Of a stretch of DNA of 39,683 nucleotides, positions 4,795 to 38,023 are shown one piece after another. A program made the position numbers and the translations under genes. How positions within the stretch are numbered: position 1 is the first letter of the stretch; every line of letters begins with the position of its first letter. A model generated the notes under the pieces. The model searched no databases, was not told where the DNA came from, and saw only the letters and a list, made by a program, of their open reading frames with translations. Source of the stretch: an uncultured Lachnospiraceae bacterium (lineage in GTDB: Bacteria; Bacillota; Clostridia; Lachnospirales; Lachnospiraceae); contig CAMNMC010000078.1 in assembly GCA_946544235.1 (NCBI GenBank), positions 1 to 39,683 on the forward strand, written 5' to 3'.

Positions 4795-7548
4795 TCATTC
4801 AACTTCTGCCTTTTTTGCCTTTCCTTTAAGCAGTCCCATAAAATATCCCAGACAGTCACTCTTTCTGAATACTATGAAGAGCAGCGCATTTGGAATGACA
4901 GCGCAGAAGATCAGATTCTTCACAACAAGTCCAAAGCCTTTATCAGGCGAGAACAGGTTCAGCCCTGTAACGATCGCAACCGTCGCTGCGCACACCATGA
5001 TAAATACGGCCAGATATCCCAGCGTTTCTCTTGCATAATCTCTTATGCTTCTTCCAAACAGTCTTGTGTAAACATATTTCGGATAACTGAAACACCAGAG
5101 AGCCATTGAGCTCGCTATGGTTCCCATGAATACTCCCGCAAGTCCGAACAGCTTCAGGAATAATATTGAAGCCGCAAGATTTATGATCGATTCAAATACA
5201 GGCACAAAGCGGTTTTCGTAGAATATACCTGCTGCATCCTGGAAAGAATTGTAGGATCCTCTCATCAGGAACTGAAAGAACTGCAGCGACAGTACTATTA
5301 TTACCGGATATGACAAGAGATATTTTTCTCCGAACCAGGCTCCGACAAAAGGCTGAAGCATAATAAGCAGCGAGGTTCCCGCAAAAGCCGCGATCCAGAA
5401 ATTCATGAATCTGATCTTTCTGAAAACCCTGTAAGACTCCTCCTTATTTCCAGAAACGAGAAGGTTTCCGACGCTCGGGGTAAGCGCAGTCAGCGCCGGA
5501 TTGAACAGCTTGGTTGCCGCATCTATGACTATAAAATAATTATTGTAGAGACCTGCTGTACTCAGACTGAAGAAAACCGAAATGAGTATGCTGTCTGTTC
5601 CATTAACTATAAAAGTACCGATCTTATGAAAGATAAGCGCGCCTGTCTTCTTCTTTATATCCTTATGTATCGACTCATCCAGAGGCACAGCATCTTCACC
5701 TCTGAGGAAAGGATACTCACGATTTGCGATCGCAGTGATGGCTATATTTTCAAGTACCCTGAAGATAAGCTTGGTCACAAGATAGATATAATAATCATGT
5801 GTGAAATACAGCATAGCCAGCTGTCCGGTATTCATTCCTATAAGATAAATCATATGAATGAAGCTTATCTTATAATTCTTCTGATCTGCATAGATTATCG
5901 CTCTCTTATATGAGAGGAAATACGACAGTACCGTATCCGCAAGATATATCAAATATATGTATCCCAGATTTATGTCTGTATTATCAGTCTTCGCGATATA
6001 CGGAAGAAAAGGGATCAGGCAGACGCCTATGACCGATATTGCCGCTGCGATAACATGGAAAGCGCGCCTGTAGAAAAGCATGAGTGATTTGACCGTTTCC
6101 CTGTCATTATCCCTGAGCGGTTTATAAAGATGAAATATAACAGCCTCGCCGATACCCAGATCGACTATCGCAAGTGCAGTTATAACATTTGTGAAAAGTC
6201 CGTTCAGACCGGCATATTCAAGTCCCAGAATATCAATAAAAAGCTTCTGAGCCATGAGACCGATCAGTATGGCAGTTATATTTGCGAAGATAGTAAATAC
6301 GAAATTGTGTGCAGCCTTACCTGTCCTGCCCTTAAACTCAGCTTCTCCTCCGCCAAGGGCTCTGTCGGCAGCCTGCTTCTCATGTATATTTTTAAGTTTT
6401 CCCGCATGGTAAGCAAAAATAATGATGTAGAAGAAATTTGCAAAAGCATGCTGTTCCATAACAAACATGAAGAAGAACAGCCCCATGAATACAGATATCC
6501 ATTGTGCCGCTGCAGTCTTGCGGCTCTTAAAAAGCTTTAAAGCTGCCAGTCCGATGATCATAAGAAAGAGCATCAGTCCTACAATACCTGTTTTATAAAG
6601 GATTTCAACGATCTCATTATGAGTTGTGATAATTATCTTATTGTATTTGAAGGTATCATATCCATGACCTATAACCGGATGCTGTTTTATCGCTTCAAAG
6701 GCCTTGTCCCATACAAATACTCTCTTTGTAAGATCCATACTTTTGTTCAGGACGCCCTCGATGAGCCATTTGAACATATCCTGTCTTCTCATAAGCACAA
6801 ACACGATATTCAAAAGTATACCTGCCAGCGAATAAGTCATTATATTAAATACAGGTGTCAGTTTCAGTATTCCAGGGATAAAAGCCAGTACCAGAAGCGG
6901 TGTCAGAACGACCATCGCTGTACTGTTTTTAACCAGATAACTTGATGATAATACCAGGATGACTCCGACTCTGAAGATATATATCTTCTTTATATCACAG
7001 ATTATGGCATACATCACTGCAAAGAAGAGAAATGCGATCTGATATGGGATATGCCCACTCTTAAAACCAAGCAGCCATGTCTCGGGATAATGATTCAGAT
7101 ATTTATACATCCCATCTCTGAAAATAATGATTGAAAAATGATTCAGGCAGGTAAGTGTTCCGAAGAATATCATCTCCGCCACAAGAAAGCTTCTGATATC
7201 CTTCAGGATGCCATATTCGATGACCAGGCATACTATAATGGTCGCAAAGGAATACTCCACCGCCCTCTTGGTCGTTCCGGTATTCAGCGCCGAAGCGGTG
7301 ATCATAACCATAAGCAGCGCTGCTATCAGTGCAAAATACTTCGGTATCTGCTTTATCAGTCTGTCTTTCAGAAGATAATACAGTACGCCTATTCCTGCAC
7401 CGATCTGTGCGAGAGTATATACCTTCGGTGTCCAGCCCATAGTATCAGTCAGATAGCCTACAGGGAAGAAAGGCAGTGTCAGCAGGAAAAATGTGATCAC
7501 ATTCTTCACGCTGCATTTATCAACTTTTTCCTTGCTGATCATTTCCAT
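4795..7548 (-). CDS. O-antigen ligase/polymerase module fused to a Wzx-type polysaccharide flippase
   Basis: One unbroken 917-aa reading frame holds two membrane modules (residues numbered from the TTG at 7560). Residues 1-390 are multi-spanning and end with a Wzy_C/WaaL-like signature: a long loop with HPVIGHGYDTF (294-304) and THNEIVEILYKTGIVG (313-328). Residues 391-418 are a charged Gly/Ala linker. Residues 419-921 form a second multi-spanning unit with the N-terminal pattern of Wzx/MATE-like flippases (LGLEYAGLNGLFTN, DLGIGEA). Ligases and flippases are normally separate genes, so this would couple export of the lipid-linked unit with polymerisation or ligation. ATG at 7548 has GGAAG 5 bases upstream and overlaps the preceding glycosyltransferase by 10 bases. 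An assembly artefact is unlikely but possible. Confidence 0.8.
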   Translation of the reverse strand: MEMISKEKVDKCSVKNVITFFLLTLPFFPVGYLTDTMGWTPKVYTLAQIGAGIGVLYYLLKDRLIKQIPKYFALIAALLMVMITASALNTGTTKRAVEYSFATIIVCLVIEYGILKDIRSFLVAEMIFFGTLTCLNHFSIIIFRDGMYKYLNHYPETWLLGFKSGHIPYQIAFLFFAVMYAIICDIKKIYIFRVGVILVLSSSYLVKNSTAMVVLTPLLVLAFIPGILKLTPVFNIMTYSLAGILLNIVFVLMRRQDMFKWLIEGVLNKSMDLTKRVFVWDKAFEAIKQHPVIGHGYDTFKYNKIIITTHNEIVEILYKTGIVGLMLFLMIIGLAALKLFKSRKTAAAQWISVFMGLFFFMFVMEQHAFANFFYIIIFAYHAGKLKNIHEKQAADRALGGGEAEFKGRTGKAAHNFVFTIFANITAILIGLMAQKLFIDILGLEYAGLNGLFTNVITALAIVDLGIGEAVIFHLYKPLRDNDRETVKSLMLFYRRAFHVIAAAISVIGVCLIPFLPYIAKTDNTDINLGYIYLIYLADTVLSYFLSYKRAIIYADQKNYKISFIHMIYLIGMNTGQLAMLYFTHDYYIYLVTKLIFRVLENIAITAIANREYPFLRGEDAVPLDESIHKDIKKKTGALIFHKIGTFIVNGTDSILISVFFSLSTAGLYNNYFIVIDAATKLFNPALTALTPSVGNLLVSGNKEESYRVFRKIRFMNFWIAAFAGTSLLIMLQPFVGAWFGEKYLLSYPVIIVLSLQFFQFLMRGSYNSFQDAAGIFYENRFVPVFESIINLAASILFLKLFGLAGVFMGTIASSMALWCFSYPKYVYTRLFGRSIRDYARETLGYLAVFIMVCAATVAIVTGLNLFSPDKGFGLVVKNLIFCAVIPNALLFIVFRKSDCLGYFMGLLKGKAKKAEVE

Positions 7549-8624: not shown

Positions 8625-8680
8625 TATCCAAACCCTTTGTCTATATAATGCCTATTGGCCGCTGTGGAAAACAAGTTGCC

Positions 8681-8815
8681 GCTTTCCGTTTCTGCAAAGA
8701 AAATATATTACTGCTTTCCGTCTCTGCTAAGAAAATATATTACCACTTTCCGTCTCTTCGAAGAAAAATATTACCGCTTTCTATCTCTCCGAAGGAAATA
8801 TATTACTGTCTTCCA
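8681..8815. repeat. Tandem array of four 31-32-bp imperfect repeats
   Basis: Units start at 8681, 8713, 8745 and 8776 (period 32, 32, 31, 32), and a weak fifth copy at 8808 runs into the end of the LicD gene. The plus-strand consensus is GCTTTCCGTCTCT followed by a short variable dyad and AAAATATATTAC. Within each unit the centre forms a small inverted repeat whose bases differ between copies (TTCT/AGAA, TCT/AGA, TCTTCGAAGA). There are no spacers, so this is not a CRISPR array. It fills most of the gap between two operon genes. Function is unknown; it could be a copy-number-variable leader or a protein-binding array. Confidence 0.8.
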
Positions 8816-27431: not shown

Positions 27432-27446
27432 CAGAGTGAAGACAAA
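27432..27446 (+). repeat. IS left terminal inverted repeat
   Basis: Fifteen bases are identical to the reverse complement of 29067-29081. Confidence 0.85.
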
Positions 27447-27474
27447 GGTCGTGTTCAACACGGCCTTTTCTTTA
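27447..27474 (+). terminator. Inward-facing terminator at the IS left end
   Basis: An 8-bp stem (27447-27454 / 27458-27465, loop TCA, one G-U) is followed by TTTTCTTT on the plus strand, immediately inside the left inverted repeat. It would stop outside transcripts from reaching the transposase. Confidence 0.75.
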
Positions 27475-27561
27475 TACTGAAATATCAAAAAGTCCTTATA
27501 TTACGGGCTTTTCACCCTTTTGTATGGTATACTTATAGTATCAAATAAGGCGGTGTAACCC

Positions 27562-28960
27562 ATGATTACAGAACATACAGAGCGCGTAAGAAAGCAACTT
27601 CAGATGGTATCTATCGATGATCTTGTTCCACAGGATCATCTTCTGCGAATTATCGACAAAGCAATTGACTGGTCATTCATTTATGACCTCGTTCGCGATA
27701 AGTATTCTCCAGACAACGGTCGTCCAAGCATTGACCCGGTTGTGCTTATTAAAATCCCATTTATTCAGTACTTGTACGGTATAAAGAGCATGCGCCAAAC
27801 GATCAAAGAGATTGACGTAAATATCGCATATCGTTGGTTCCTTGGTTTAGAGCTAGGCGAAAAGGTTCCACACTTTACAACATTTGGCAAGAACTATAAA
27901 CGCCGATTCGAAGGTACTGACCTGTTTGAACAGATATTTCAACATATCCTAGAAGAATGCTATAAGTTTAGGCTGGTAGATCCAACCGAGGTTTTTGTGG
28001 ATGCAACACATGTAAAGGCTCGGGCAAACAACAAGAAGATGCAGCGTCGAATTGCAAAAGAGGAAGCACTATTCTACGCAGAAATGCTCCGTAAGGACAT
28101 TGATGCTGATCGTGAAACCGTTAAAAGATAAAGACGATGATAACAAGCCAAGCGGTGGTTCCGGCGATAAGTTCGAAGACTATACTGATGATGTTCCATT
28201 AGATGGGAAAACTATTAAATGTAGCACAACGGATCCAGAAAGTGGTTGGTTCCGCAAGGGCGAGCATAAACATGTTTTTGCATACGGTATCGAAACGGCA
28301 TGCGATAAAAATGGCTGGATTCTTGGATTTAAAGTTAATCCCGGTAACGAACACGATAGCCGTACCTTCAAAGGTCTTTACGATAAATTGCAGGATATTG
28401 GAATGAAACGTTGTGTCGTTGATGCCGGATACAAGACACCTGCTATTGCAATACTTTTATTAGATGATGGTGTAGACCCTGTGTTACCATATAAACGTCC
28501 GATGACCAAAGATAGATTCTTTAAGAAATACGAGTATGTGTACGATGAGTACAATGATTGCTATATTTGCCCAAACAATCAGGTCTTAAATTATAGCACT
28601 ACAAATCGTGACGGATATCGTGAATATAAGAGCTGTGGAAAGGCTTGCGAATCATGTCCGTATCTTGAGCAGTGTACGGCAAGTAAAAATCATGTAAAGC
28701 TCGTTACACGGCATGTATGGGAAGATTACATGGAAATATGTGAGGACATACGCCAAACTATAGGCATGAAAGATGTATACTCACATCGAAAAGAAACAAT
28801 CGAGCGAATCTTTGGGACAGCAAAAGAAAACCATGGATTTAGATATACGCAGATGTATGGAAAGGCGCGAATGAAAATGAAGGTCGCGCTTACTTATGCT
28901 GCCATGAATTTGAAAAAACTGGCAATGATAAAAACAGAATGGGGATTACAGCCTGCATAA
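27562..28960 (+). pseudogene. IS1182-family transposase, frameshifted
   Basis: The N-terminal half (27562-28131, 189 aa) starts with VRKQLQMVSIDDLVPQDHLL and contains the DUF772-type region and FVDATHVKARANNKK. The rest continues in the +1 frame from about 28108 to 28960, starting at a KDKDDDNKPSGG linker and carrying the DDE core (VVDAGYKTPA, ETIERIFGTAKENHGF) and a cysteine cluster CGKACESCPYLEQC. The switch falls near GAAACCGTTAAAAGATAAA (28117-28135). The reading expected from relatives (DRE...HGKKPLKDKD) suggests a small deletion rather than programmed shifting. AAGGCGGTG precedes the ATG. The product is probably inactive. Confidence 0.85.
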
Positions 28961-29023
28961 GCGGGTAGAATCTTCATATATTTCATATTTTCTTGGTGTC
29001 CAAACAAGAAAAAAGAAAATAGA

Positions 29024-29069
29024 AATGAAAAAATGCCTTCTGTGACACATTGAATCACAGAAGGCATTT
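29024..29069 (-). terminator. Inward-facing terminator at the IS right end
   Basis: A perfect 15-bp stem (29031-29045 / 29055-29069) with a 9-base loop is followed on the minus strand by TTTTTTCATTTC. It overlaps the right inverted repeat by three bases and would block antisense read-through into the transposase. Confidence 0.8.
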
Positions 29070-29081
29070 GTCTTCACTCTG
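29067..29081 (-). repeat. IS right terminal inverted repeat
   Basis: Fifteen bases are the reverse complement of the left end at 27432-27446. Confidence 0.85.
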
Positions 29082-29082
29082 G

Positions 29083-29110
29083 ACCACCTGCATAGCAGGT
29101 GGTTTATTTG
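29083..29110 (+). terminator. Plus-strand terminator just outside the IS right end
   Basis: A perfect 9-bp stem ACCACCTGC/GCAGGTGGT with loop ATA is followed by TTATTTG. It may end transposase transcripts, or be a host hairpin next to which the element inserted. Confidence 0.6.
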
Positions 29111-29120
29111 TATCGCTAAT

Positions 29121-29163
29121 ACAAAAAAATCGGATAAAAGGACATAATTATCCTCTTATCCGA
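29121..29163 (-). terminator. R1 cassette terminator
   Basis: A 13-bp stem (29163-29151 / 29142-29130), with one position that pairs only as G-U on the minus strand, is followed by ATTTTTTTG. It occupies the same place as the R2 terminator but has a different stem sequence. Confidence 0.85.
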
Positions 29164-29166
29164 CGG

Positions 29167-29253
29167 TTATCCATCATTAACATATTCAATTTCAGACAAC
29201 GAAAAAAGGGCGCAGTTAGCTAATGCTTGCTTGAGCGTAGCGAATCTCGGCAT
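29167..29253 (-). CDS. R1 candidate small peptide (28 aa)
   Basis: This short frame starts ATG in TTGACAGGTATG and ends TAA just before the terminator stem. Its C-terminal half reads NCALFSLSEIEYVNDG, and the R2 copy reads SCAFFSIITEHNRNG in the same frame and position. No good ribosome site is visible, so coding is a hypothesis. The alternative is that the similarity is purely at RNA level. Confidence 0.25.
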   Translation of the reverse strand: MPRFATLKQALANCALFSLSEIEYVNDG

Positions 29254-29262
29254 ACCTGTCAA

Positions 29263-29357
29263 CTCATCAATATATCATATGAAAATTCGGTTAAATTATA
29301 GCAAACAAACATGTTTTTTACAATAATATGTTATGAAAAGGCAGCTATGAAATTGTT
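29263..29357 (-). repeat. R-element conserved block, copy R1
   Basis: About 95 bases are roughly 93% identical to 36510-36603 in the same orientation, covering the promoter and early transcript of the cassette. With R2 it forms direct repeats about 7.25 kb apart. Confidence 0.85.
29295..29323 (-). promoter_or_regulatory. R1 cassette promoter
   Basis: Minus strand: TTGTAA (29323-29318), exactly 17 bases, TATAAT (29300-29295). The same boxes and spacing occur in R2 although the spacer sequence differs at several positions. Confidence 0.75.
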
Positions 29358-29436
29358 TCATATGATCAAATCAAGGCCTCTCCCAACTTCGGCACGAGTT
29401 TGTTGCTTGCCAAGAATTGGACACAAACATCTACAA

Positions 29437-30840
29437 TCAGTTTGCCGAAACATATTTTTGATTACTACTATTAGGTTTATCTGGAATTGTCCGAACCAAC
29501 TTTCCATTCTCAAGTAATGGATCAAGAATTTCGGTTCTGAAATATCCTCTGTTTTTAATTCCTATTCTCTCTTGTATCTCAGCTCGACTCCTTGGAACCG
29601 AACAATATTCAAGTATCACTCGCTCTCTGTCTAATTCACTTACTACAGCTTCTTGGATGGCATCTTGGTTGGTGCCTTGGTTGGTACCATCCAAGTTTGG
29701 CAACCAAGTCTCTCGAAGATTTCTATAAAATGCAACAACAAAATCATCTTCCTCTGTCCGAAATTCAACCTTGCAGCCTGCTTCATCGCAAAGATCCTTT
29801 ATTCTCTTTAGGCCAGTTGCAAAAGTCTCCATATCCTTTGAGTAATATAATACTCCCGTAATTCTTCTGTTCCGACGAATTGGCTTCTTATTTCCATCCA
29901 GATACTCTTCCGGTGAGTGTCCCTTAGGGAATCCGCCTGTAGTATGTATTTCTATTCTATCCTTGAATACATCTATCTCGTTATTCTGTCCATTATTATA
30001 CACTCGGTGACCATATGAATTAATCACAGCTTCTCGGATAGCTTCAACCGGAATTTCTGGAGTTTCAACTCTTTCCAGCCCTATAATATCAGCCTTCCAG
30101 TCCATCGCATCAATGATATACTGTTCGCAAATCTTACTCAGACCAATAATGGACCCCTTATCTTCCCTGCGAATATCCGTAAATGTCGCTTTTACGTTAG
30201 TAGCAAATTTTGCCATCTGAACATCCGTATCACTTGTGTCACAGAAGAGCGCAGCCCCGGCATTTAATAAATGAATTCCATCGTCAGCCATGAGATCCAG
30301 TTTATTCATAACCACTTCTGGATCATCCGATTCAAAAATGATTCTGCCAACCTGTTTTGCTTTATTTAAATATGTCTTAAAATCGCGCATATTAATATCA
30401 GAAACCGTATATTTTGAAGGTTGATTCTCCCAGGAATGTTTACCGTCATCTCTAATGAGCATCATCTCAAAATACATATCCTGATTCATCACAATGTCCT
30501 CATCCGCTTCACGTATGCGTGGAACATTATATGCAGTATATGGCTGCTTATTGCCTTGAAAATCTACGAATACCACTGTCTTTCCATCTTCGTACGTTTT
30601 CTTATCAACCACCGGATATATAGCCGGATAAATATGATTTTGAATTGCTTGACTGACATTTCGAATCGTCTGATCACTTATTTCCTGCCCTATAACATCC
30701 CCATTATTCTTGACACCAAAATAAAGCGTACCAGATCCATGTTTATTAAGTATTGCAACAATAGATTGAATACCCTCCTTCAGTTCTCCGGTAGATTTCT
30801 TAAATTCAATCTGTTCAGTTTCTTCTCCAATATTGATCAA
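29437..30840 (-). CDS. AlbA_2 / HATPase_c_4 regulator (RecG-like transcriptional regulator family)
   Basis: This 467-aa protein has three parts. An AlbA_2 (Schlafen-like) nucleic-acid-binding domain at residues about 8-130 has EETEQIEFKKS and HGSGTLYFGVKNNGDVIG. An ATPase-like region lies at about 240-380 (IPVEAIREAVINSYGHRVY, then RIEIHTTGGFPKG). A C-terminal winged helix (SRAEIQERIGIKNRGYF) follows a Gln/Asn/Thr linker. Relatives are accessory regulators of unclear function, some linked to phage defence. The chosen start is TTG at 30840 because AGGAGG lies 7 bases before it; starting at GTG 30864 would put that site inside the gene. Its own promoter overlaps a hairpin after the giant-protein gene. 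Confidence 0.8.
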   Translation of the reverse strand: MINIGEETEQIEFKKSTGELKEGIQSIVAILNKHGSGTLYFGVKNNGDVIGQEISDQTIRNVSQAIQNHIYPAIYPVVDKKTYEDGKTVVFVDFQGNKQPYTAYNVPRIREADEDIVMNQDMYFEMMLIRDDGKHSWENQPSKYTVSDINMRDFKTYLNKAKQVGRIIFESDDPEVVMNKLDLMADDGIHLLNAGAALFCDTSDTDVQMAKFATNVKATFTDIRREDKGSIIGLSKICEQYIIDAMDWKADIIGLERVETPEIPVEAIREAVINSYGHRVYNNGQNNEIDVFKDRIEIHTTGGFPKGHSPEEYLDGNKKPIRRNRRITGVLYYSKDMETFATGLKRIKDLCDEAGCKVEFRTEEDDFVVAFYRNLRETWLPNLDGTNQGTNQDAIQEAVVSELDRERVILEYCSVPRSRAEIQERIGIKNRGYFRTEILDPLLENGKLVRTIPDKPNSSNQKYVSAN

Positions 30841-30874
30841 TATCTTTCCTCCTAGAATGATCACTCTCGTAAAA

Positions 30875-30903
30875 AGTATAACAGGGCGTTATTGAAAAAT
30901 CAA
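30875..30903 (-). promoter_or_regulatory. Promoter of the AlbA_2 regulator gene, embedded in a hairpin
   Basis: Minus strand: TTGATT (30903-30898), 17 bases, TATACT (30880-30875) with a TGT extended -10. The -35 lies at the edge of the loop and the -10 right after the stem of the hairpin at 30882-30913. The leader is about 28 bases. Confidence 0.55.
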
Positions 30904-30913
30904 CAACGCCCTG
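30882..30913 (-). terminator. Hairpin after the giant secreted-protein gene
   Basis: A perfect 9-bp GC-rich stem (30905-30913 / 30882-30890) with a 14-base loop is followed on the minus strand by TTATACTTTTTACG. It probably terminates the giant-protein gene, whose stop is 31 bases upstream. It overlaps the next gene's promoter. Confidence 0.6.
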
Positions 30914-30943
30914 CCGCTTATAACGCTACTAAAAAGTATATAT

Positions 30944-33900
30944 TTAGTTCACAACCTTGCCGCCTTTAATGGTATATTTCTTACCATTATAGTTTACGGT
31001 TCCGTTGTAATCGAACTGAACCTTACCACCCTTACAGTACCAAGATCCGTACTGGTTAGAACCGATACCGTTGAAGTTGAAATCAACCTTTCCGCCCTTG
31101 CAGTACCACCAGCCGTTAGAATTCTTTGCAACACCGGTAAAGTCAAAGTCTACCTTTCCGCCACTGCATTTCCACCAGCCGTATTCGTTCTTTTCCACTG
31201 TATTGCAGTTGAAGTCAACTTTGCCGTTAACAATACGCCACCAGCCATTCTCGTTCTTAGCAATTCCGGTGTAATCGAAGTTAACCTTTCCGTTCTGGAT
31301 AACCCACCAGCCGTTCTCGTTCTTCTCAACCGAGTTAACAAACTGAACCTTGCCTCCGCTGACGAACCACCAAGCAGTTTCTCCGTTGACGGTTCCCTTA
31401 AGGACATCCTTCTTGTTGAAATCAACCTTACCGCCCTTGCAGTACCACCAGCCATTCTCATTCTTGGCAAGTCCGGTGAAATCAAAGTTGACCTTACCCT
31501 TCTGGATAACCCACCAGCCGTTCTCGTTCTTCTCAACCGAGTTAACAAACTGAACCTTGCCTCCACTTATGAACCACCAGGCAGTTTCTCCATTGACAGT
31601 TCCTTTACGAACATCCTTCTTTGATGTATCTACCTTGCCATTAACAACGTAGTACCAATCGTTTCCGTACTTTGCAAAACCTGTAAATGATGTATCCTGA
31701 ACGCCATTCTTTGCATAATACAAAGCATTGTTATACTTCTGGATGCATGTCTTTGACTTATCAAATACATATATACTCTCAGACTTGCTATTAGTATATG
31801 TCTTACCATTTAGAGTGACTGTTGCCGTATATGTCCTGGTTCCTGCTGCAGTTACAGTTGCATTCTTTGTAACCTTATTCGTTATGGTAGCTGTAGCAAC
31901 ATTGGTATGCTTGCTGTCATTTTTGCAAGTAAACTTAGCAGTTGCCTTAGTATAACCTGTCCATGTCCATACAGGAGTTCCATAACTATGTCCGGTTGCT
32001 GCTATGCTCGCCGTTTTAGTATCCGTATAAGTCTTGCCACTAAATGTAACCGTTGCCGTAAATGTCCTTACACCTGTCGAAGTACATGTTGCTGCTTTTG
32101 TTTCTTTGCTGGTTATAGTCGCCTTAACAGTTGTTACATGATCTGAATCATTGGCACATGTGAACTTGGCTGTAGCACTGCCTGTTCCGTTCCATGTCCA
32201 GTTTGGTGTTCCGTAGCTGTGTCCTGTTGCCGCCTTGGTTGTGCCCTTCTTAACTGTTGTTCCGCAATCCAGACAAACAGTATCACCGGTATATCCTGCC
32301 TCTGTACAGGTCGGAGCTTTTGCATTTCTAACTTCAGTTCTTGTATGTGGACATGCTTTGATCTCAACAACTACACTGTCAACAGCTGAATTATTATGGT
32401 TTGCATCACCAATAACTTTAAACCATACAGAATAACTTCCTGTATCCTTAGCAGAAGGTATCGTCGTGTTGAACTGACTCTCATCCGTAGGAGCTGCTGC
32501 GCCCTTCTTGGTAACAGCATATTTCATAGTACCAACTGTTGACGATCCTGCGTTAATAAGCTTTTGTGACTTTCCATTATAGGTCAGTGTCTTTGCCGTA
32601 GGTTTCGTGATATCAGTTGCCCCTATATCAGCTTTATTTACTACTAATTTAACCTTGCATTCTGTGTTTTCATAATGATCTGAATCTGTCGGAGTAAATA
32701 CTACCGTATACTCAGTTTTGCCACTATCTGAAACAGAAGGCTTTGTTGTTCTGCTCTTCCAATCAAATGTACCTGCTATCTCTGTCTCTCCAACAACCGC
32801 TTTTCCACCTCTCAGTGTACTATTTGCAAGCGTCTGACCATAGGTGATTGCTGAAGCCTTAGGAAGCACTGATATACTTGATGCCGCCTTATTTACTGTA
32901 ATAGCAACCGTTCCATCAATTGAAGAATATTCTGAATTGCTTGGTGTAAACCTCCATGATGCAGATGTTGTACCCATATCCGGTACGCTATCAGGTTCAA
33001 CCCACGCCAAAGTACCATCTACAATCTTGGAATTCTCTTCATCTGATACAAATACAGCTGAATTGAACTGAAGAGTAGAGAGTTTCTGTCCGTAAGTTAA
33101 TGTACTATTTTTAAGTGTTACAGATGAACCATCTTTCAGTTTCACAGGAGTCTGATCCGCCAGCATAATATTTAACGTGATGGTTATATCTGTATAATTG
33201 TCTGTCTCAGCTGTCACGGTAATAGTACCGGTTGATCCTTTATCTCCCGGAGCAACAGTATAACTCAAGATACCGTCAGTTACGGAAGGAGCCTTTGAAT
33301 ATGATATATCCCCTGCGCTGCCAACACTGTAGCTGACATTACCACAATCTTCAGGAAGCAGTGATGAAATATTAATGCTGTCCTGGCCACCTTCCAAATA
33401 GAGATAAGTCTTGTTAATAGCGTCAACAGATGTCTCAGCCTTGCCAATATCTGCTGTAACACTTGCCGGCTGTCCGCTTAAACTATAATTTGAAGCAGCA
33501 CTTCCTGAAAGTGAGAATCCGCTGAAAGCTACTGTTATTCCTGTGCCAGCACCAGCCGTTTCAAATGCAGCAGTTCCACTGACGATACTCACATCATCGC
33601 CATCAACCTTGCCGTCGATGGTAGCTGTACCACTTACCTCCGCAGTTGTTGTTCCGTCATAGGTCTTATTTGAAGCTGTCAAGCCGGTTATCGTAACAGG
33701 CTTTGGTGTAATTGTAAATTCAACACTGGCAGTAGCTGCATCATTTCCACTTCCAAGAGTTATATTTGCTGTATATGTTCCGGCATTTTTAGGTGTGCTT
33801 GAACCAAGAGATGTATTTCCCTTCTTGTAAGTTATTGTTGGCGTTCCAAGAACAGAAGTGTCTCCGGTGATGGTAGCCGCCTTTGCCGATCCATTATATA

Positions 33901-36259
33901 CAAGACTACCTGTCGGAGCTGCGATAGTCAGTGTTGCCTTGTTATTCGTCAGAGAGCATCCATCATTGGCACATGTTGCTGTTATAACTGCACCATCATC
34001 AGACACAACATATGTAAACCTATGATAGTGTGCCGAAGAATCATACGGAATAATAGTTTTACCGCCAATAGTAGAATTGTCCGATATCACACTGGATGCA
34101 AAGGTTACTGTTGAATCTGCCTTGTCCACAAATGCTTTTTCCAGAGTCACAGTACCTTTGTAAGAAGATGAAGAAATCTCATCAGAGGAAACACTTGTCC
34201 AGCTAAGGGAAATCGTCCCTGTACTGGTGCTACTTCTCGAACTACCAATACCAACATCATTTGTACTGTATGCAATCGCGTTGACAACACCGCCGGAGAT
34301 TATGATTTCATTGCATTTTTTATTACGTCCACTGCCGATTGCTGCCGAATCAGAGGCACCATATGCGGTTACATTTCCACCGGTTATTACGATCCTGTTT
34401 GCTTCAGCATCCCTTCCTGAACCAATACCGGCACCCCATTCAGGTTTATATCCCTCACATATACTACCCTTCGCTAAAATTGTTCCACCTGCTATTGTGA
34501 TGATACCGCTTTCTCCGTCTAATCCACCGCCGATTCCGGCAGCACCATAGTTACCATATGCCTCTACATATCCGCCATTGATACGAATTATTCCTCCGTT
34601 TCCATGCCGGCCTCCGCCAATACCAGCTCCATACCAGTTACCGCCATAAGATTTTATAGTTCCAGCATTGATGGTAATTGTCCCTCCACTACCACCTTTA
34701 TATGCAGATACATCTCCGCCACCAATACCTGCGGAATTCTGGCCTCCATGTGCCTCGATATACCCTCCATATATATTGATTGTACCACAATTCATGGTCT
34801 CTTCACTATTAGCTCCACCTATAGCTGCATAATTCGGCTTTTGTGTTGCATCTGCACATAGTTTTCCTTTATTCTCTCCAGTAGATTGTGCGAAGATGTT
34901 TAGTGAATTATTGCCATAAACAGTTATTCCGCTTTGAGCATTCAGTGTTGCGCCATCAGCAAGAATAAGATTTACATTTCCATCTACAACGAGTCGATTG
35001 TTAATCGTTAAAGTACGATCAACCACATACCAACCGGTATTCCAAGTGGTATCGCTTTCACTGACATAAGAATTACTTGTACAGTTTGCATTGTTTCCGT
35101 TCGCATCCAAATACGGAATACTTACAACAGTATCTTCCTTAAATGTTATCGTGACCGTAACATCTTTATCGGGCATGCTAAAAGAATATGTACCATCCTG
35201 ATTAGCTGTAGGCTGAAGAGTACCGCTTTCTTCATAAGAATAGCTAATTGAATCCACCGCATATCCATTTGCAGGTTGAGGAGTTAGTACAATATTGGTA
35301 TTAGGCAAAGCTTTGGTCGGGGATACAACCAGAGATCCCTTTGATGGTTCAGAATTAGAAACAATCGTACTGTGGACACCCTCGATGTCTTTCCACTGCG
35401 CATATGCAATTACGGATTCTTTCCATCGATAGGTTGTTCCTTCCGGATAATAATCTGATCCTATTTTCCAGGTGTCAAACTCCATCCCATCAGGAGGCGT
35501 GAAAGAACATTCGGGCAAAACAAAGAACTTATCTGTTCTGCCACTCATTGTATCCATAGTCCCTGATCCACCGTTTGCATCAAACCTGACAGATCCCTTT
35601 ATAATAACAGGTATGCCATCCTGTGATGCACTTATATCGATAGAATATTCACTATCACCAACCGTAACTTTCAACACGGCAGTTGATTCAAAACTATCCC
35701 CACCATAGTATGTGGTCAACATCCATTTACTATTCTGCTGCGATGCAGAGATGCAACTTCCATTGACTTCTACGTTGTTGATTTCACCTGTCGTGGTCCC
35801 CAAAAGATCATTCAATACATCTGTCAATTCAAAAGTGCTGCTCTCTCCGCAGGGTGTTGTCTTGCTAAATGTCTTACCGGAATACTTGAAAAAAGTAGTA
35901 TATGTAGTCTTCTTCTTAAAGCTGACATTCACCGTCACATCTCCATCAGGCATCACAAAAGATGTTGTCGCCCAATAGAAAGGAACCGCATTTTCACCAC
36001 ATTTCACGGAAAGATCATATAATTCATATAGATCATCCGGGCTGATTGTCAAAGTAACAGTCTCCCCCTTGACTGCTGTTGTTTTATCTGCCGTTACCGT
36101 TCCATTAATGATTCCATCCGCAATCGTAATGGAGTAAGTCGTTTCAGATGCATAAGCCACATTCATAAGTCCATCAATTGGAACTAACCCAAGTACCATC
36201 GAAACTGTCAGAACGAATGACAGTATGCATTTAACTAAGTATTTCTGTTGTCGTTTCAA
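30944..36259 (-). CDS. Giant secreted multidomain protein with C-terminal cell-wall-binding repeats
   Basis: This 1771-aa protein begins with a signal peptide (residues 1-38, cleavage after VAYA). It then shows InlB/Flg_new-like beta repeats (about 40-115, 225-290, 300-375), a Gly-rich beta-helix-like region with repeated AGIGGG and AAIGSG phrases (440-690), and Ig-like MBG and YDG domains (770-1300, e.g. [13 protein letters not shown] at 865-877). Two copies of an ATGHSYGTP...WTW module follow (1344-1470). Residues 1505-1771 form a run of about ten 20-23-residue aromatic repeats (NGWWxxxGKVDF), a choline-binding-like wall anchor. It is likely a surface adhesin or matrix protein. The start is TTG with AAGGAG 8 bases upstream. 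No catalytic motif was found. Confidence 0.85.
31294..31357. repeat. 64-bp exact direct repeat in the wall-binding region, copy 1
   Basis: Identical to 31501-31564, 207 bases (69 codons) away and in frame. Recombination between the copies would remove or add about three wall-binding repeats without breaking the gene. Confidence 0.85.
31501..31564. repeat. 64-bp exact direct repeat in the wall-binding region, copy 2
   Basis: Identical to 31294-31357; see that entry. Confidence 0.85.
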
Positions 36260-36328
36260 TAGATCATCTCCTTTATCTTATTATTTTTATAAACTCAAAA
36301 TACATCTTTTTTAAATCGTAATTCTGTG

Positions 36329-36377
36329 TAACAAAAACAGCTGGACAAGGGTATAACATCCCCTTATCCAGCTGTTT
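36329..36377 (-). terminator. R2 cassette terminator
   Basis: A 17-bp stem (36377-36361 / 36351-36335), with a single position that pairs as G-U only on the minus strand, is followed by TTTTTGTTAC. It is one of the strongest terminators in the window. Confidence 0.9.
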
Positions 36378-36489
36378 ATCCATTTCTGTTATGTTCAGTT
36401 ATTATTGAAAAAAAGGCGCAACTATAGCTTATGCGATGCGATGCGATGCGATGCGATGCGATGCGATTAAGCATGTCCTTTTTCTGCAT
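36376..36489 (-). CDS. R2 candidate small peptide (37 aa) containing a pentanucleotide tract
   Basis: This frame opens MQKKDMLN, runs through RIASH repeats encoded by seven CGCAT units, and ends SCAFFSIITEHNRNG. The final part matches the R1 peptide in frame and position. AAAGGA lies about 10 bases before the ATG; an in-frame ATG at 36510 is also possible. Gain or loss of one 5-bp unit would shift the frame. Its coding status is a hypothesis. Confidence 0.3.
   Translation of the reverse strand: MQKKDMLNRIASHRIASHRISYSCAFFSIITEHNRNG
36431..36465. repeat. Seven perfect ATGCG pentanucleotide repeats
   Basis: Thirty-five bases of an uninterrupted 5-bp unit (CGCAT on the minus strand) lie inside the R2 cassette. 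The matching place in R1 has only degenerate remnants (CGCTACGCTC). Such tracts change length by slipped-strand replication. Confidence 0.95.
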
Positions 36490-36509
36490 ATTTGTCAAGT
36501 CCTTTCTCA

Positions 36510-36603
36510 TCAATATATCATATGAAAATTCGGTTAAATTATATCAAACGAGCATGTATTTTACAATAATATGTTATGAAAAGGCAGCTATGAAATTATT
36601 TTC
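36510..36603 (-). repeat. R-element conserved block, copy R2
   Basis: Matches 29263-29357 in the same orientation; see that entry. Confidence 0.85.
36538..36566 (-). promoter_or_regulatory. R2 cassette promoter
   Basis: Minus strand: TTGTAA (36566-36561), 17 bases, TATAAT (36543-36538), the same architecture as R1. Confidence 0.75.
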
Positions 36604-36618
36604 AAAATCATAACTGCC
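36579..36618 (-). terminator. Terminator upstream of the R2 cassette
   Basis: An 11-bp stem (36618-36608 / 36593-36583, one G-U on the minus strand) with a 14-base loop is followed by TTTTCATAAC. It would end transcripts coming from the IS256-like remnant. In R1 only one arm of this stem is kept. Confidence 0.6.
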
Positions 36619-36804
36619 TCTGACAATCAGAATTCAGTTTTATATAGCTACCCGGAAGTATATACAGTAAACTGCTTTTTATTCAGCCGTCATCTGATTA
36701 TCAACAATATCATTATGCTTTCCCTCTTTTACACCATGAGTTTATATTATTTCCTTTATAAAATCTATTCTTATTATATATTCATTTTGTTCTATATACT
36801 TTAC

Positions 36805-37008
36805 TTATTTATCATTCTGTCTTTCAGGAAATAACATGTCGCCCATTCCTAACGCTTTCATCTCCTCAATATTACTTTCAAGAACATCTTTAAGTGCATT
36901 CTCAAGATCATATATATTATTTATATCATAATCTTGAAACAACTGACGAGTCATTGGATTTTCACTACTGAACTTTATTTCACTTTTTTTGTCTTTTTTA
37001 TTTTCCAT
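36805..37008 (-). pseudogene. IS256/Mutator-family transposase N-terminal remnant
   Basis: This 67-aa frame contains DYDINNIYDLENALKDVL followed by ESNIEEM. That is the pattern of the N-terminus of many IS256-type transposases (a 'DLQ.ALKDLL...I.EML' helix pair), but it stops where the homologous region normally continues into HLGYE and the catalytic domain. The ATG at 37008 has GGAGG 5 bases upstream, so a short protein could still be made, perhaps as a domesticated fragment. The longer frame from 37092 has no support. No downstream transposase remains in the next 545 bases. Confidence 0.55.
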
Positions 37009-37186
37009 ATTTCCTCCAATTATAATCAAAAGTATTGTTAAACTGATTTTATCATAATCCTTGACGAAATCAATCGGATTATATATAGCCAAAACGAGCC
37101 AAACAACAGCATAAATGCCATTATCTGACTCGTCTATTATCTTAGGAAATCTTATTTACATAAAACTTTTCACACGCTCCTCAGTG

Positions 37187-38023
37187 CTAACGTTTAGCTA
37201 TTATATCAATTATCTCCTCAGCCATCTTTGTTCCGTCATCAGTCCTTTCAACAAATAACTGATACTGAATATTATTTGCAGTAAAATACACCACCTGCTT
37301 TGCAGAATGCTCTTCGTCTCCATCATATCCCGCTTCCTTGACAAAATAGGCTGTTTTATCATCGCCGTATTTGTAAGTCCTGTAGTACTGCCTCTTTGTG
37401 CCGTAACCCATTCCGTCTGTGTTATTATCAAATGTAAACTGACCATTAAGCGCAAATTCCATATCACCGTATTTCAACCAACCGGCGGAAATATGACCCG
37501 TCCCATAAGTAGAAAGAGCGATCATTATCGGTCCCATATCTGTTATCTCATCAGATGCCCAAAGCTTAATGCCCATTGTTTTCTCGGCTACATCAACACT
37601 TGTAAAATAATGGAAATATTCCTGACCTTCATTATCAGTTTCTTCCATGGCCTTAAAGCTCTCAAAATCAATCTCAAGCGGCTCCGTCTTCTCCACATCC
37701 ATCTCTTTATCTCCAGTCTTTAGGGTAAAGAATCCAGCATTTCTCGCCACAGTATATCCTGAAATTCCGACAACCAGGAACAGGCTCATTATTACAGCAG
37801 CTGCCTTAAGCCTGCCCATTACGAAAACTCTTTCAGTCCGGTTTCCGGTCCGGTTTCCGGTCCGGTTTCCGGTCTGCTTTCCGGTCTTATTTCTCGCCTT
37901 CACCCCTGTGTTCTGTAAGCCCAACTCCCCGGCACATACGCAGAGTACTTTTTCATTCAGAGTTTTCTTCGGTCGGTGCTCATCCTTTAATGATCCATAT
38001 AAGTATTCATCCAATCTATCCAT
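37187..38023 (-). CDS. Membrane-bound anti-sigma factor (DUF4367-like)
   Basis: This 278-aa single-pass protein has a cytosolic N-terminus (1-69) starting MDRLDEYLYGSLKDEHRP, a transmembrane helix (about 72-90, AAAVIMSLFLVVGISGYTV) and an extracytoplasmic domain (95-278). The C-terminal end (VVYFTANNIQYQLFVERTD...EEIIDII) is typical of DUF4367 proteins paired with ECF sigma factors. Residues about 45-63 contain TGNR repeats encoded by the 12-bp tandem at 37837-37884. The gene starts 6 bases after the sigma-factor stop with GAGAGG as ribosome site, so the two form an operon. The stimulus is unknown. Confidence 0.8.
   Translation of the reverse strand: MDRLDEYLYGSLKDEHRPKKTLNEKVLCVCAGELGLQNTGVKARNKTGKQTGNRTGNRTGNRTERVFVMGRLKAAAVIMSLFLVVGISGYTVARNAGFFTLKTGDKEMDVEKTEPLEIDFESFKAMEETDNEGQEYFHYFTSVDVAEKTMGIKLWASDEITDMGPIMIALSTYGTGHISAGWLKYGDMEFALNGQFTFDNNTDGMGYGTKRQYYRTYKYGDDKTAYFVKEAGYDGDEEHSAKQVVYFTANNIQYQLFVERTDDGTKMAEEIIDIIAKR
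37837..37884. repeat. Four 12-bp in-frame tandem repeats in the anti-sigma gene
   Basis: Unit TCCGGTTTCCGG occurs three times exactly and once with two changes. It encodes TGNR repeats in the cytosolic linker just before the membrane helix, so copy-number change alters linker length by four residues without a frameshift. Confidence 0.9.

Follow-up and report, generated by a model that had tools for sequence, protein, structure and literature searches.

Paired cassettes in a Lachnospiraceae genome as members of a family of putative phase-variable leader-peptide attenuators

The window, a 39,683-nt stretch of DNA from an uncultured Lachnospiraceae bacterium, carries two cassettes on its minus strand, R1 (29121–29357) and R2 (36329–36603), and both the placement and the promoter-to-terminator layout given in a preliminary description are borne out. 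The promoter scan finds the common box pair (P1), TTGTAA and TATAAT separated by 17 nt with a TG before the −10, at 29323–29295 in R1 and 36566–36538 in R2, and P1-like sites recur in relatives. The first segments, described as near-identical, share 95% identity over 96 nt, and just short weak matches are left beyond this block, in agreement with the diverged middle reported earlier. Each cassette ends in a strong terminator whose stem pairs fully on the minus strand, with 16 pairs in R1 (hairpin and T run at 29121–29164, by terminator scan and folding) and 17 pairs followed by a T run in R2 (36335–36377, by folding). The minus-strand hairpins reach −22.1 kcal/mol in R1 (z = −7.1 for the fold) and −29.6 kcal/mol in R2 (z = −9.1). 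On the plus strand the folds are weaker (−14.4 and −24.3 kcal/mol, respectively) and carry one interruption each, so the remark that the imperfect positions are G-U only on the minus strand holds.

Each cassette also contains a micro-ORF, as had been supposed, which ends at the foot of the hairpin. The leader ORF of R2 (36376–36489, minus strand) has 37 codons plus TAA in frame B (defined below) as assembled, and its stop lies 4 nt before the G-C foot. It includes a tandem repeat of 7 CGCAT units (7.4 copies; 36431–36467) and the core TAGTTGCGCC (36415–36424), placed by leader alignment; a second promoter-like pair (P2), TTGACA-17-CATGCT, lies across its start codon at 36470–36498. The R1 leader ORF (29167–29253), of 28 codons plus TAA, is likewise in frame B and is accompanied on the minus strand by a remnant repeat of 2.5 copies of CAAG (29224–29233), the core TAACTGCGCC (29209–29218, leader alignment) and a P2 pair, TTGACA-17-TACGCT (29234–29262). 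No Shine-Dalgarno sequence is recognized before the R1 start codon, where the relative L008 has AAAGGGG. The end of each short ORF at its hairpin foot, the tandem repeat in R2 and the place of R2 directly before a gene had been missed by the preliminary description. Two further tandem arrays in the window, with 32-nt units at 8679–8806 and 12-nt units at 37836–37893, show no visible relation to R1 or R2.

A simple scan of 28800–37200 returns 25 promoter-like sites against 26.5 expected from shuffles and 8 terminator-like sites against 4.6 expected (sd 1.8), and the R2 hairpin is absent from the list of the latter. Since the promoter counts are no higher than in shuffles, the boxes alone are little proof; the case for R1 and R2 rests on the fold z-scores and on the homologues rather than on simple scans. 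Rfam gives 0 matches at gathering score in the window.

R2 directly precedes a gene (36259–30944, minus strand) that encodes a 1771-aa surface protein with a TTG start, a signal-peptide-like N-terminus, and choline-binding repeats, YDG, InlB-type and beta-helix domains. R1 retains its terminator, its cognate gene is absent, and an insertion sequence (IS) adjoins downstream. R1 is a decaying orphan leader: the gene is gone, the Shine-Dalgarno sequence is missing and the repeat is nearly lost. The IS extends over ~27432–29081, has similar inverted ends by eye and lies outside the homologous block; its transposase, with DUF772 and DDE_Tnp_1_6, is encoded by a pair of frames that overlap (27562–28131 and 28052–28960).

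The homologue search that had been proposed as a check was run with a covariance model on genomes of the genus and family, and it reveals many homologues beyond the R1/R2 locus. The model, built from 17 leaders that all belong to the window's own family, matches 23 of 61 genus genomes at E ≤ 0.01 and 19 of 61 at E ≤ 0.001; the weakest genus matches at E ≤ 0.01 (e.g. L053, L057) are unlike leaders. At E ≤ 0.001 it matches 12 of 397 family genomes (in 11 of 334 genera), 6 of 392 order genomes, 4 of 391 class genomes and 2 of 398 phylum genomes, where the counts include the window's own genome and the samples of the five ranks overlap. Just two matches fall outside the family, L070 (order search) and L122 (class search), and both are weak. 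The contig of L070 ends just before the core, with a hairpin and a secreted-looking ORF behind it; L122 shows, by eye, a start codon, core, stop and secreted-looking ORF and no clear repeat. Because the model was built on family members, absence outside the family means only that no close sequence relative is present there.

As DNA queries, R1 matches 6 of 61 related genomes and the post-repeat leader of L005 matches 16 of 61 genus genomes. The window's own genome, a 2.87-Mb draft that is 82% complete, has two copies only, R1 and R2. An exact 34-nt block has a single match in genome contigs, in the MAG Eubacterium sp. RGIG2622 from goat omasum, and no match in viral contigs, and R1 has no match in a plasmid collection. 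In viral contigs, the core 16-mer occurs in 18 stretches and six GCAGA units in 22, of which the model, itself blind to non-homologous leaders, confirms just L085, L090 and L097 (E ≤ 0.1). Ten of the 18 core-16-mer stretches were inspected by eye, and 7 of the 10 are without a leader. The cassettes may be travelling on mobile elements.

The leaders run, from 5´ to 3´, in this order: P1, start codon, repeat, core TAACTGCGCC with a T run, stop, terminator and gene. The start codon often follows a Shine-Dalgarno sequence, including in R2 and many relatives; R1 and L074 have no recognizable one. Several leaders have a short repeat or none; in the others it is built from varied units, namely AGAGC, AAGC, CGCAT, ACCGT, AGGTC, ACAGC, AACAG, ACACG, ACAGT and AAAG. 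Each of the ten units is 4 or 5 nt long, is no multiple of 3 and is stop-free; freedom from stops would also be expected of ~76–81% of random repeat units. The leader stop lies 33 to 75 nt 3´ of the core. Across 43 leaders, three recurrent stop sites are observed: frame A ends at the core or immediately ahead of it, frame B ends at the hairpin foot (mostly at −3), and frame C often ends within the hairpin, at +9 to +22. In R1, R2, L013, L014, L074, L080 and L085, two frames end early and one at the foot, and in L076 the reading passes the whole hairpin and ends on the next gene's start codon.

In 30 of 37 leaders a stop codon falls in the last 8 nt ahead of the hairpin foot, against 6.2 expected from shuffles; this test leaves out the rows L003, L010, L017, L018, L063 and L070, and here as in the counts of frames, promoters and gene context the leaders share kinship and are not independent events. 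The foot-stop scan of all 43 leaders finds none in nine (L010, L052, L054, L058, L068, L075, L076, L079 and L083), although in L010, where the contig starts at the core, a foot stop is present by eye. The distance from core to stop is divisible by three for 31 of the 34 foot-stop leaders (the exceptions being L018, L063 and L070) and takes 8 different lengths, and the foot stop itself varies between TAA, TGA and TAG.

The next ORF is secreted-looking, with a signal-peptide-like start as judged by eye, in 33 of 43 leaders. The other ten comprise R1, L004, L017, L073, L075 and L078, which have no recognized cognate gene, L076, whose next ORF has a membrane-type start, and L052, L056 and L058. 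L052 stands before what we take to be a kinase-like protein, not a secreted one, and the CGCAT leader in its region 7010–7105 is interrupted inside the repeat by consecutive N letters. L090 and L097, on contigs filed as viral, each stand before a Big_2 Ig-like-domain protein and beside serine recombinase genes; L085 and L090 share a contig. The anatomy, the kept geometry of stop and hairpin, the homologues and the gene context are all directly visible in the DNA.

When the 32 leaders with a usable start are classed by hand, 13 are in frame A, 7 in frame B and 12 in frame C or beyond, which is a near-equal occupancy. The genomes compared represent one per species, and no difference in repeat number inside a species or strain is seen among them. 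This census leaves out, from the 43, R1, L052, L058, L063 and L078, in which start or frame is unclear, and L003, L010, L018, L070, L075 and L085, in which no start is seen. The assembled R2 is in frame B, and R1 reads in frame B too. Codon positions show no third-position excess of changes, with 1211, 1286 and 999 changes at positions 1, 2 and 3 (273 pairs from 28 leaders, without the rows L003, L017, L018, L063, L070 and L071), and the coding status of the leader rests for this reason on the geometry of frame and stop. The constraint seems to act on frame and stop position and not on the amino acids, as a mechanism based on length predicts.

A related genome (G023) provides a view of how such cassettes change. 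Its contig C25 starts within an AAGC repeat; next come a leader half that is the same as R1 along 113 nt and a gene that shares 96.6% identity across 3595 nt with the window's R2 gene. Contig C16 ends in the same AAGC repeat and carries the upstream flank of R2 (93%, 218 nt) and its neighbors (96%, 1524 nt). The simplest reading would be that the repeat-core-terminator segment was exchanged at the orthologous locus and that flank and gene stayed. We infer the pairing of C16 with C25, because a third contig, C37, also ends in the same repeat. L073, L074 and L085 are mosaic-like too, by eye. All three G023 contigs (L123–L125) end inside the AAGC leader repeat; the cassettes are thus break points in assembly, and their copy number may be underestimated.

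At a probability of about 0.82, R1 and R2 are members of a single family of phase-variable leader-peptide attenuators, in which slippage would shift the reading frame and translation at the hairpin would block termination. By analogy with the pil1 leader discussed below, we infer slippage, translation, antitermination and surface-protein switching as the steps. Transcription would begin at P1, and a ribosome would initiate at the leader ATG and translate through the 4- or 5-nt tandem repeat, so that a unit gained or lost would change the frame of exit. In frame A, the stop at or near the core would be far from the hairpin; the terminator would form and the gene would be OFF. In frame B, the ribosome at the foot stop would cover the 5´ arm and the terminator would fail (ON), and in frame C the stop, often inside the hairpin, would likewise leave the 5´ arm covered and the gene ON. 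The assembled R2 is predicted to be ON. In a crude occlusion model, which assumes that the ribosome covers 12 nt past the first base of the stop codon, a ribosome at the foot stop changes the median hairpin energy from −33.2 to −14.0 (34 leaders), and one at a stop inside the hairpin changes it from −33.7 to −4.0 (24 stops). The mechanism predicts frame C to be the stronger ON state and frame B to be intermediate where hairpins are long. L015 has, in place of the usual 5´ part, the start of an unrelated ORF, which reaches the same foot stop in frame B; a repeat is almost absent, and this leader is possibly locked ON. If the mechanism is true, it amounts to a recurrent on/off switch of surface proteins in a gut and rumen bacterial group, and its state is readable from sequence, which makes surface variation in metagenomes predictable and testable.

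The family holds two candidate promoters. An exact TATAAT of P1 is present in 24 of 35 upstream regions against 6.0 expected; this count leaves out L003, L010, L015, L018, L063, L070, L075 and L078 by choice and L083 and L085 as having no P2 anchor. A P2-like pair (TTGACA-like, 16–18 nt, nAnnnT) lies across the start codon and ends 0–7 nt before the repeat in 26 of the 39 leaders scanned, which do not include L008 and L009; in repeat-less leaders the distance is taken from a point assumed to lie 10 nt ahead of the core. Of the 26 pairs, 22 have an exact TTGACA, and 22 are matched by no more than 6% of shuffles. No pair of this description is found in the remaining 13 (L015, L017, L018, L031, L052, L054, L056, L058, L063, L075, L078, L079 and L083), of which L017 has a pair with 13-nt spacing, L079 has one 13 nt away, and L031, L052 and L056 show one by eye outside the scanned stretch. 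This regular position at the repeat edge is the argument for taking P2 as the main promoter, with the repeat acting on initiation or on the RNA 5´ end and not via translation. However, a change in repeat length downstream leaves the spacing of P2 as it is, the geometry of stops and frames is left unexplained, P1 is well supported, and L017, with its 13-nt pair, and L015, with none, depart from the pattern; we regard this reading as improbable. Under the attenuator reading, RNAs from P2 lack the start codon and are therefore predicted to terminate. A more speculative and rather doubtful extension is that the family represents dispersed, exchangeable, hypermutable attenuators of surface proteins, in which P2, as part of the leader ORF's start region, might let RNA polymerase open the DNA at the repeat edge, raising slippage or giving a competing, always-terminated transcript. 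One ~150-nt cassette would then have two outputs, switching rate and expression state. The presence of P2 allows a test of whether the mutation rate of the repeat is set by transcription at its edge.

The preliminary description took the two units as an undescribed class of autonomous small RNA or micro-peptide, a claim that is not supported, because the units are 5´ leaders (33 of 43 before secreted-looking ORFs) and the mechanism class has been described, as the excerpted text of Danne 2014 (PMC3894217) indicates. An independent trans-acting small RNA, running from P1 or P2 to the terminator with the gene behind it incidental, would fit the complete promoter-to-terminator units, and P2 would start RNAs at the repeat edge without the leader start codon. 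The gene context and the lack of an Rfam match speak against it, and trans action would leave the in-frame repeats unexplained; in the consensus structure of the 17-leader alignment, moreover, the terminator is the sole predicted element, and we consider such an RNA very improbable. The same consensus fold, which has no antiterminator, speaks against a conventional attenuator, in which ribosome stalling on the leader peptide would sense an amino acid, a drug or the state of translation. N-C-A-L-F and EY-x-RDG stretches do recur in frame B, but the third-position excess is absent and the frames are near equally occupied, which makes stalling a very unlikely explanation. The missing excess also ruled against an amino-acid-type conserved leader peptide, which had been considered as a candidate. 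Transposon ends or a MITE-like repeat without regulatory function, brought to mind by the IS just downstream of R1 and by several orphaned leaders, have a close to negligible probability given two copies only in the 2.87-Mb draft genome and the conserved position and geometry before genes.

The phase-variable attenuator reading has a close counterpart in the pil1 (and pil3) leader of Streptococcus gallolyticus, which, in the excerpted text of Danne 2014 (PMC3894217), likewise combines a ribosome-binding site and leader ORF, 5-nt repeats, an intrinsic terminator and surface genes behind. There, 22 GCAGA units let the pil1 leader end 39–49 bp before the terminator, with low expression; 21 units place the stop 4 bp before the terminator and 23 units place it inside, both with high expression. 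The same excerpts report that chloramphenicol reduces the high pil1 variants, that pil1 without ribosome-binding site and ATG is low, and that deletion of the terminator locks it on. The three frame-dependent stops of pil1 coincide with the geometry observed here, and GCAGA is a rotation of AGAGC, the unit of several of our leaders. Unlike pil1, the present leaders come from another bacterial class, use several 4- and 5-nt units at one site and precede genes that are not pili where inspected. They have a conserved core, a foot stop and, in most, an interleaved P2, and are likened to pil1 by its description, not by its sequence.

The effect of a stop codon near a terminator is also known from translation-coupled repression: as excerpted from Li 2015 (PMC4824070), the E. 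coli terminator tR2 is almost silent a few bp behind a stop codon and works as the distance from the stop grows, but this system is not a switch. Simple-sequence-repeat contingency loci of Haemophilus, Neisseria and Helicobacter, in the excerpted accounts of them, likewise switch surface genes by repeat slippage; unlike in those loci, the repeat here belongs to a leader ORF of its own and its effect would be on termination, so that the surface protein would not itself be frame-shifted. Among the matches listed in the open-access literature, this combination is described just for S. gallolyticus. The mechanism class is thus one already described once, for pil1, of which the family would be a larger branch in a new lineage, the gut and rumen clostridia, and its apparent new traits are the varied repeat units at one site, the promoter-like pair interleaved with the start codon and the exchange of leader segments.
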